Of a stretch of DNA of 64,000 nucleotides, positions 11,704-16,076 are shown piece after piece. The DNA lies in NCBI GenBank assembly GCA_947631255.1, contig CANRKT010000007.1, positions 19,347 to 83,346 on the forward strand, read 5' to 3'. Source of the DNA: an uncultured Enterobacteriaceae bacterium. GTDB taxonomy: Bacteria; Pseudomonadota; Gammaproteobacteria; Enterobacterales; Enterobacteriaceae. The notes beneath the pieces were generated by a model. That model saw only the letters and a list, made by a program, of their open reading frames with translations, did not search any database and was not told the DNA's origin. How positions within the stretch are numbered: position 1 is the stretch's first letter; each line of letters begins with the position of its first letter. Made by a program: the position numbers and the translations under genes.

Positions 11704-12615
11704 ATGAATTCTACAGAGACCCGTAAGGGTGTATTACTGGCTCTTACGGCTTGTGTTATCTGGGGATTTGCCCCTGTTTATTTTAAATTTCTTCAGCATG
11801 TTCCAGCCATAGAGATCCTCACCCACCGCGTGGTCTGGTCGTTCTTTTTTATGGTCATACTCCTGAGCCTTTACCGTTTATGGCCAAAGGTAAAATTGGT
11901 TTGTCAGCACCCTAAAAAGATCCTCGCCCTGGCACTCACCGCAGTGTTAATTGGTTGTAACTGGTTACTCTATATCTGGGCGGTCAATAACAATCACTTA
12001 CTTGAAGCAAGCCTGGGATATTTTATTAACCCGCTGGTCAGCGTACTGCTGGGAATAATTTTTCTCGGTGAACGTTTCCGCGCCATGCAGTGGACTGCGC
12101 TATTACTGGCCATGACCGGAGTTCTGGTTCAACTCTGGACCTTTGGTTCACTGCCTGTAATTGCCCTCGGACTCGCATTCAGCTTTTCTTTTTACAGTCT
12201 GCTACGTAAAAAAATTGCCGTCGATGCCCAGGTCGGTATGCTGATAGAAACCTTATGGCTGCTTCCTGTCGCCGCTATTTATCTGTTTGCTATCGCTGAT
12301 AGTCCCACCAGCGATATGACTGAGAATAGCGGGTTGCTGAATCTGTTACTGATATTTGCAGGGATCATCACGACCGTACCACTACTCTGCTTCACTGCTG
12401 CGGCAAACCGCTTACGTCTCTCGACGCTCGGTTTCTTCCTCTATAGCGGCCCAATTCTGATATTTTTACTGGCAACGCTGCTCTATGGCGAAGTGGTTAC
12501 CGAAGATAAAATGATAACATTTGGGTTTATCTGGGCTGCACTGGTACTGTTTATTACTGATGCTATCTACACCCAGCACCGTGCTCACAATGCACTAAAA
12601 AATCACAAAATTTAA
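11704..12615 (+). CDS. rarD: RarD EamA-family permease
   Basis: 303 aa, RKGVLLALTACVIWGFAPVYFKFLQHVPAIEILTHRVVWS. Confidence 0.95.
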   Translation: MNSTETRKGVLLALTACVIWGFAPVYFKFLQHVPAIEILTHRVVWSFFFMVILLSLYRLWPKVKLVCQHPKKILALALTAVLIGCNWLLYIWAVNNNHLLEASLGYFINPLVSVLLGIIFLGERFRAMQWTALLLAMTGVLVQLWTFGSLPVIALGLAFSFSFYSLLRKKIAVDAQVGMLIETLWLLPVAAIYLFAIADSPTSDMTENSGLLNLLLIFAGIITTVPLLCFTAAANRLRLSTLGFFLYSGPILIFLLATLLYGEVVTEDKMITFGFIWAALVLFITDAIYTQHRAHNALKNHKI

Positions 12616-13431
12616 CCCAATTAGTAAGTAATAAGGCACCTCTGGCGCCTTATTACTGTGGGAAACACCCAAAGCAGGACGGCCAGAAACGTCGCGGTAT
12701 CGCTAACAGCCTCCATAGCGAGTAATGTACCCGCTTCAAACTGGCAAAGCATATCTGGTCATTTTGAACAGGATATTTTTCCGGGCCACTGAACCACCAA
12801 CCAGCCAGCCAGCCAGACACCAACCTGAAAAACAGATTGAGCGATATCAATACCAACCACTTACAGTGTGAGCAAAGAAAACCTGCTTCAGGCTGGGTCC
12901 ACTATTGACTATTGCAGGGCAAACTCAAAAATCAGGCTTAAATATCCACAATGGCTATTCGTCAAAAACCTTGCTGTATGATGATGAAATTGAACTGAGC
13001 ACACCGCACGACCGTGAAAACACCTTCGAGTTTCGCACTCCATTGACCTCGAAAAAATGGAATATATCTATCCAGAACTGGCGGCTGGCATGACTATTTG
13101 CTTAATTTCAGTAATCGTTTGAAAGAACAATTTTAATAATGAGGGAAATTGCTCAGAATTATTGACATATTATACCTAGCTATTAATTTTTATAAAAATA
13201 ACTTGTTAATTTATAATATGCAAACTGTTATGTAAGCATTAGCCATCAACGTTTATTGCTATAGATGTTTCATTATCAAAGGCTAGCCGTAATATATTAT
13301 ATACCTCCAGGAGCGGTCCCGGGCCATCTGAAACACTTCTACAGCAGTGCAGCGATGCGGAAGCTACGCTCAAGACGAGAACGGGAATATGCGAGGGAGG
13401 AGAGAGAGAAAAGATCGAAATACCCATTAAA

Positions 13432-13468
13432 AAACAATGCCGCCACCTTAAGTGACCGGCATTAGCCT
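13432..13468 (-). terminator. putative rho-independent terminator on the - strand downstream of the rpn pseudogene
   Basis: AATGCCG...CGGCATT stem followed on the - strand by GTTTTTT. Confidence 0.4.
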
Positions 13469-13782
13469 GATGGCTCCTTTTTAGCGATGATTAACCCTAC
13501 GGTTCTGAACTGAACTCTAAAATATATTTATCTTCCATATATATTCGTATGCATTATCTATCATACCGATTTATTAAATAGAGAGAACTACGCCAACAGG
13601 TAAGTTTTTAGAGGGTAACATGTCAATATTATAATAATATCCGGCACTGTTATATTTAATCATATCAATAACTGTTTATTATAACGAATGCATTTAAATG
13701 GGGTTCTATTAATCAATGTAATAATGGGTTCTAGTGATTTGATGATTTATAAAATTAATTCACTGAGTTCCAGAAAAGATGA

Positions 13783-13968
13783 CTAATAGCCAATCTGCGC
13801 CATATCATTTTCAGTCAAACCGGTCATTTTCATAACGGTATTGCGGTCAATACCATTCTGCAGCATGGTACGAACAATTTTAAGGGTAGCTTCACGCTCA
13901 CCTTTTCCAATGCCCTTCTCAATGCCCTTCTCGATCCCCTTCTGTTCAAGCTGTTGTGCAATGGTCAT
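13783..13968 (-). CDS. candidate internal 61-aa Rpn C-terminal short ORF (RpnS-like)
   Basis: In-frame ATG at 13968 (MTIAQQLEQKGIEKGIEKGIGKGERE...) preceded by GAGGA with a 7-nt spacer; the frame is open despite the upstream frameshift. Confidence 0.45.
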   Translation of the reverse strand: MTIAQQLEQKGIEKGIEKGIGKGEREATLKIVRTMLQNGIDRNTVMKMTGLTENDMAQIGY

Positions 13969-14723
13969 CAGTTTGTCCTCATGTTGTGGCACCCGCTGCG
14001 CCAGTTCACGTACAAAGGCCTCTGCATCTGTAGTTTCACCTGCCTGTATGAGGTAGTTTATCAGCGAAACTAGCTGCTGTCCTGTCATGTTTTCTGTCAG
14101 CAGCAGGGTGGTCAGGTTGTCCAACAAGTCTACCAGATCCCTGCGATGAATATGTTTCTGTAGCAGCGTCAGGGCCGCCATACGGCGGTGCCGCATAATC
14201 TCTTCGTCTGGTATGACCGTAACATCGACCAAGGGAAAATTACCGCTGTATAGCTTTTCAGCCAAACCGGGATCATTAAACTCATCCAGCCAGCGGGTTG
14301 AATACGGGTAGGGGCTGCGCCTTCCGGTGTCGGTATCACCAGCGGCAACTTTTTATGTCCTGCATCCAGGTGGCGCTGCATGGCGGCAACCGAGTAACGA
14401 AGAAGCCTGAACGCCATATGTTTGTCCGGGGTGGACTGGTGTTCGATGAGAACGTGAATATAACTATCATCACCGGTTGTGGTTCTTAGACTATAGAGGA
14501 CGTCGCTGAAGTAAGGACGCAGACTATCCTCGACAAAGCTTCCTGATTCTAGTCTGAGGGTACTGAAGTCACAGACAACCTGCAATTCTGCTGGCAGATG
14601 TAATTGCATGAAATCCCGTGCAGTTTCGGGATGTGTCAGGAACTGTTTAAATGCTAGGTCATGTGGAGTAGGCGTTCCCTTCGCTCTTCCCTTTGCTTTC
14701 CTTTCAACCATGTATTTCTCCAT
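13783..14723 (-). pseudogene. Rpn-family recombination-promoting nuclease/putative transposase (YhgA/RpnA-like), frameshifted
   Basis: ORFs 14169..14723 ([77 protein letters not shown]) and 13783..14265 ([36 protein letters not shown]...MTIAQQLEQKGIEKG) are the N- and C-parts of one Rpn protein in different frames. Confidence 0.88.
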
Positions 14724-15125
14724 TACCCCAGCAATGACCCGGATTGTATCGGAACGCTAACTTGTCAGCTCGGCAATTCTGGTGCCTATAAATAGTTTCA
14801 ATAAGATTGAATGAACAATATTATCACCAATACTTAAGGAATTTATTATGCCAAATAAATAGCACCAACAATTAATTCTCGTGCAATGTTTATTGCTATT
14901 CATAATTTAAACTGTAGTACAGCTTTCTCATGACAATATAATTTTATAGCACATAAGTAAATCGACAGAAATATTCGCATTAAGAAAATTCGGTGCTAAT
15001 ATACAAACCGTCTGAAAATGAAGTGTCGATGTTACATATATTTTTTGATTTTAATTATTAGAGAAAAGCTCTGACAGACAGGCCAGAACTTTGTCATTAT
15101 TCCGAGGAACCAGATGGCTCCTTTT

Positions 15126-16076
15126 TTATAACCAGTTACGTCGCTTAAAATAGAGATACGGCGCCAGCCCTGCCAGCATCATAAAGACGATAGCCGAAGG
15201 GTAACCAAAGCTCCAGGTCAGTTCTGGCATAAATTCAAAGTTCATACCATAGCTGGATGCGACCAGGGTCGGCGGCAGGAACACCACCGAAACGACGGAG
15301 AAAATCTTAATTATTCGGTTTTGCTCGATGCTGATAAAGCCCATTGCTGCCTGCATCAGGAAGTTCACTTTTTGAAACAGCGACTCGTTATGAGGAAGTA
15401 GGGACTCGATATCGCGTAAGATTTCTCGCGCCTGCTCTAGCTGGCCAGCCGGTAAGCGTGCTTTACGTAACAGAAAATTCAGCGCACGCTGGGTATCCAT
15501 CAGACATAAACGCACTTTCCAGCCGATATCTTCTTGTTCTGCCAGAGTTGAAAGTGCAGCATCATACTCAGCGCCCTGGCGCCCTTCCATGATAACGCGA
15601 CTCAGTTTTTCCAAATCGCTATAGATATTTTCTATTTCATCGGCCAGCTGTTCTATTTTGGTTTCAAACAGATCAAGCAGCAACTCAAAAGGATTTCCAT
15701 CCACCATCAACTGCTTACGGGCACGCATACGATAGAGACGAAAGGCAGGCAGCTCACGCTCACGTAAAGTGTACAGTCGACCTTCACGGATAGTAAAAGC
15801 GACAGTACTATTACCAGCATGGTCATCAGTGTCTTCAAAAAAGAAAAATGAGTGAATATGCAGGCCGTCTTCATCTTCAAAAAAACGGGCGGAGGATTCG
15901 ATATCTTCCAGTTCTGGTCGAGTCGCCAGGCTCTGTCCAAGCTCTAGCTGAACGCGATCTCGCTCGCTCTCTTCCGGTTCAACCAAATCAACCCATAATG
16001 AATCAGACAGGTTATCATTTTCGTCCAGTTCAATACGACACAGGCGATTATCTTCCAGTTGAAATGCACTTAGCAT
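15126..16076 (-). CDS. corA: magnesium/cobalt transporter CorA
   Basis: [19 protein letters not shown]...[11 protein letters not shown]...[10 protein letters not shown]; start placed at 16076 (E. coli-like), not at the upstream in-frame ATG 16160. Confidence 0.97.

Follow-up and report, generated by a model that had tools for sequence, protein, structure and literature searches.

A frameshifted rpn gene of an uncultured Enterobacteriaceae bacterium with an intact and probably expressible RpnS cassette

Within the window, by which we mean the whole 64,000-nt stretch of DNA analysed here, we found an rpn gene that is split over two reading frames of the minus strand (Table 1). PF04754 positions 1–113 are encoded in the frame-1 ORF, while positions of about 119–201 follow in the other frame. 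Alignment with the intact syntenic orthologue and with paralogues places a 10-nt deletion between the two parts, and because of this frameshift no frame at the locus encodes an intact RpnL with its nuclease domain that could pair with RpnS. The frame-1 ORF stops at 14169, which is about 200 nt upstream of the RpnS ATG at 13968. That full-length RpnL was lost through the deletion in the nuclease domain is a fair reading of these alignments. The gene is adjoined by what we take to be corA, with presumably rarD beyond it, both names being read from the translations. At the corresponding corA-side locus, an intact rpn gene (L157/L028, G001:C15) stands in the genus relative G001 and only a 41-residue rpn remnant (L158, G003:C28) in another, G003, so that rpn decays repeatedly at this place.

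Table 1. Features of the split rpn gene and of its RpnS cassette in the window.
Feature	Position	Strand	Description and basis
Split rpn gene with two PF04754 matches	14169..14723 (frame 1); 13783..14265 (frame 2)	-	
Frame-1 rpnL remnant	14169..14723	-	131 native PD-(D/E)XK nuclease-domain residues and 53 out-of-frame residues, then stop (184 aa)
10-nt deletion junction, shifts the frame	about 14333/14332	-	alignment against intact syntenic orthologue L157/L028 and paralogues
Remaining nuclease domain and linker, now frame 2	13969..14332	-	open, conserved; window-lineage pN/pS 0.16
Promoter-like element (TGATAAACT element), extended -10 type	14055..14083	-	scan and silent-site conservation
Shine-Dalgarno GAGGA, 7-nt spacer to ATG	13976..13980	-	duplex energy -6.0 kcal/mol
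RpnS-type small protein, 61 aa and stop TAG	13783..13968	-	TIGR01784 C-terminus, predicted three-helix bundle, start aligned with RpnA Met244
Four-residue repeat block KGIE-KGIE-KGIG-KGER	13894..13941	-	sets the length of helix 1

The preliminary description of this DNA had read, in the second frame, a 61-aa ORF with its ATG at 13968 and a GAGGA motif seven nucleotides before it, and our re-reading reproduced all of this exactly. In the alignment the ORF starts at the residue equivalent to E. coli RpnA Met244, the start of RpnA-S that has been proven by mutation (PMC10327210). An ATG is present at the RpnS position in 101 of the 101 Enterobacterales rpn genes scanned, the window included. All 101 sites have a Shine-Dalgarno (SD) duplex energy of -5 kcal/mol or below; among 1005 other in-frame Met codons, 10% reach this value and only 5% the strength of the window site (-6.0). 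Since 21.5% of synonymous versions of the window sequence alone yield an equal SD, it is the family, and not the window site, that carries the statistical weight.

The protein itself matches TIGR01784 at positions 217–273 (E 2e-13, slightly below the curated cut-off), showing that it corresponds to the C-terminal part of an rpn gene (PF04754/TIGR01784) as RpnS should. Its four-residue repeats begin at residue 10, inside the range of 8–20 residues past the start that we looked for; across the family, 96 of 98 genes have helix lengths spaced by multiples of four. The AF2 model (pLDDT 79.7) has helices at 3–37, 42–49 and 53–59, and its best Foldseek match in the PDB is E. coli RpnA-S (7TH0, probability 1.00, E 0.023), which is also the sole PDB entry matched by sequence in a single stretch (E 0.0012). 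DARPin and ankyrin entries came up in the PDB sequence search as well and were dropped, because there, unlike with 7TH0, no single stretch passes alone. The earlier identification as RpnS is thus borne out by the homologous start, the invariant ATG and SD, the repeats and the fold, and the window ORF is a genuine RpnS unit. It resembles RpnA-S of the RpnL–RpnS systems (PMC10327210; 7TH0) in being encoded within the C-terminal part of an rpn gene, in the homologous placement of its ATG and SD, in the four-residue repeats after the start and in the predicted three-helix bundle. It differs in its length (61 aa compared with 49 aa) and, the toxin frame being broken, in lacking a cognate RpnL at the locus.

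RpnS units without an overlapping full-length toxin frame also exist as stand-alone genes (E. coli ypaA, the RpnE-S copy, and DUF4351 proteins; PMC10327210). These are separate genes beside an intact rpn, in contrast to the window RpnS, which lies inside a frameshifted rpn in a genome whose only intact rpn is on another contig and has a longer helix. In other genomes (L166, L172, L181) we also saw free-standing RpnS copies, single or as tandem pairs, beside rpn genes. The copy at L166 is one four-residue unit shorter than the upstream gene.

Between the deletion and the RpnS start, 87 nt upstream of the ATG, lies a promoter-like element composed of AGGACA (14083–14078), a 17-nt spacer ending in TGA and TAAACT (14060–14055), with a predicted RNA start at about 14048. 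In a weighted scan the best promoter-like site fell at the place of this element in 73 of 100 rpn genes, with a mean score of 8.4 there and of 5.5 in control stretches. E. coli rpnA and rpnB carry a similar element (ATGACA-17-TTTAAT), whose distance to the RpnS start is one nucleotide off that in the window. Additionally, in 77 full-length genes the roughly 40 codons that precede the RpnS start, among which the element lies, are unusually conserved at silent sites (0.14–0.33 per 7-codon block, mostly at least 0.2; background mean 0.085); the genes in this survey and in the promoter survey are related, so that neither set of counts is independent. A strict sigma-70 scan found no promoter near the RpnS start on the minus strand, a terminator scan gave no terminators, and an Rfam scan of 12600–15200 returned no matches at E ≤ 1. 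It is consensus, as seen by the weighted scan with the strict one silent, and conservation that suggest a promoter. Finally, RNA starts have been found inside all five E. coli rpn genes (Zhong et al., PMC10327210).

The whole RpnS cassette, that is the element, the SD, the ATG and the coding region, lies 3' of the deletion, and transcription and translation of RpnS therefore probably continue in this organism. The claim in the preliminary description that RpnL was removed while RpnS stayed expressible is a fair reading in its first half, the frame being broken by the 10 nt, and becomes a probable statement in its second half, as judged from the sequence of an intact cassette. A plain dead pseudogene from which no RpnS is made, either since the element is not a promoter here or since transcription ends early after ribosomes stop at 14169, seems unlikely to us. 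The position of that stop well upstream of 13968 and the empty result of the strict scan would fit such a situation; the conserved element, still in place, and the internal RNA starts of all five E. coli genes speak against it.

Could the cell have shed the toxin and kept RpnS as a functional antitoxin against plasmid-borne Rpn toxins (anti-addiction) or against a paralogue? A full expression cassette by sequence is there, and the stand-alone RpnS copies in other genomes and in E. coli are in favour of this idea, as are the anti-addiction roles that are discussed for orphan antitoxins of other TA families (PMC7354431). Rpn relatives are also common on plasmids: 3397 of 72556 PLSDB records encode a relative of RpnS, mainly in Klebsiella and Salmonella and most often on conjugative plasmids. 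Against it speaks the number of repeat units. In E. coli, neutralisation was lost when either RpnC-S or RpnC-L was given one extra unit and was kept only with the unit in both, and RpnA-S and RpnB-S gave no cross-protection (Zhong et al., PMC10327210). This specificity was established for RpnC and is carried over to the window proteins by analogy.

The preliminary description had proposed to look for intact paralogues, and the genome indeed holds one other rpn, which is intact and lies on contig C50. The distance from Met to TGL is 48 residues in the window RpnS and 56 in this paralogue, so that the repeat helix of the resident toxin is two units (8 aa) longer and the unit numbers do not match. 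The incoming toxins look no better. The best 40 plasmid matches are all four residues longer than the window RpnS, and in a spread plasmid sample the 36 matches aligned from Met1 are all four to twelve residues longer, i.e. one to three units; no listed plasmid match with an alignment starting at Met1 equals the window RpnS in length. The 61-aa query gave no match in a collection of 50,697 phage records at E ≤ 0.01, and thus we saw no phage-borne cognate. Among chromosomal homologues only 8 of 98 share the length of the window RpnS; the RpnL of the intact syntenic relative has a helix as long as that of the window. Given this mismatch in helix length with the paralogue and with the sampled plasmid Rpns, and given that a single unit abolishes neutralisation of RpnC, protection against the C50 paralogue or against typical incoming Rpns is unlikely by analogy, and the suggestion that RpnS neutralises a paralogous or an incoming toxin finds no support for either of them. 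A length-matched toxin could exist.

The second question is whether RpnS was retained for a purpose. On the window lineage we determined pN/pS values of 0.11 for the N part, 0.16 for the middle and 0.21 for RpnS, and on the lineage of the intact orthologue values of 0.11, 0.23 and 0.30. By this measure no part of the gene is relaxed on the window lineage, and no sign of RpnS-specific selection was detected there. Conservation is no lower in the portion that is cut off from the RpnL start than elsewhere in the gene, which indicates that the deletion is recent; the open RpnS frame then says little about function. In a neutral simulation, the 61 codons of RpnS stayed free of stops with 75–94% probability at 1–5% divergence. 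Of 31 broken rpn genes, 18 have an intact RpnS, and the corresponding counts for four nuclease-domain segments of comparable length are 15, 18, 18 and 18; these genes are not independent, and their discovery via the nuclease domain disfavours the RpnS end. Examples in which RpnS is broken or absent are L158, L169, L195, L197 and L198. As there is no preferential survival, we rejected RpnS retention as a signal of selection, and the young break and the survey give no support to the view that RpnS was retained for a purpose.

Compared with the orphan or anti-addiction antitoxins of other TA families (e.g. PMC7354431), the window RpnS is alike in being an antitoxin without its toxin, and unlike in that it gives no sign of cross-neutralisation or selective keeping. 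Considering the helix two units shorter than that of the resident paralogue, the lack of a plasmid partner of equal length and the broken-gene survey, we regard a functional orphan antitoxin as quite improbable. There is an even slimmer chance that the broken gene works as an orphan antitoxin against Rpn toxins of the same helix length on mobile DNA; if this were true, one 10-nt deletion would have created an anti-addiction immunity module. Function of RpnS could be compatible with the absence of selective retention.

Several other rpn genes (L173, L182, L184 and L192) have large internal deletions that kept the gene start and left RpnS intact with its ATG and SD. The state seen in the window is a common one: among the RpnS family matches listed, about a quarter (counted by eye) are in short frames, which include split genes, genes at contig ends or divided by introns, and stand-alone copies. 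In genome G061 of the same family, every rpn copy found (L200–L203) carries an insert at exactly the same site, CAG|GCAGGCGAAAC, in phase 0 and about 90 nt before the RpnS start. The insert is a complete group II intron, about 2.4 kb long, which encodes a 561-aa maturase/reverse transcriptase (Rfam RF02012, RF00029). Since the nuclease exon, which we read separately from the RpnS exon, stands apart from the latter, the unspliced RNA would give RpnS only and RpnL would need splicing. We found no paper linking rpn genes with group II introns in the papers covered by our literature search.

The conservation of all three gene regions as if the gene were intact, together with a draft genome of 119 contigs, also raises the question of an assembly or sequencing error, with the gene being intact in the organism. 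We consider this improbable, because a 10-nt gap is atypical of short-read or homopolymer error and the two bases beside the gap are, in the alignment, also unlike all relatives. Finally, the 184-aa frame-1 product retains the residues that match the mapped active site of RpnA (D11, D63, E82, Q84 and R94; PMC5350276), all of which lie before the deletion, and might in principle be a nuclease unrestrained for want of the C-terminal domain through which RpnS acts; with the last core strand (LPLVIP-LFY) gone, together with the 80 conserved residues beyond, it is probably inactive, and since a cell would hardly tolerate a free nuclease we give this idea next to no credit.

In summary, we favour, with a probability of roughly 0.78, a recent and ordinary rpn pseudogene that carries an intact RpnS cassette of the known kind. 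The 10-nt deletion in the nuclease domain would have removed full-length RpnL and, with the internal element, the SD, the ATG and the repeat-bearing three-helix coding region all downstream of it, some RpnS is probably made, which would form dimers. This RpnS would persist because the break is recent, as the substitution rates and the broken-gene survey suggest, and not because it is selected. Going by the published specificity, it would block neither the resident Rpn nor most incoming Rpns and would thus have no target in the cell. For the family, this means that a broken rpn gene frequently keeps its antitoxin cassette complete, about as often as one would expect for any segment of similar size, and finding RpnS open in such a gene is therefore not evidence of retained function. 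Beyond this, the silent-site constraint and the promoter-like element at a fixed distance, seen in rpn genes across the Enterobacterales, extend the finding of internal RNA starts in E. coli and open a direct way to test whether antitoxin and toxin are controlled separately.
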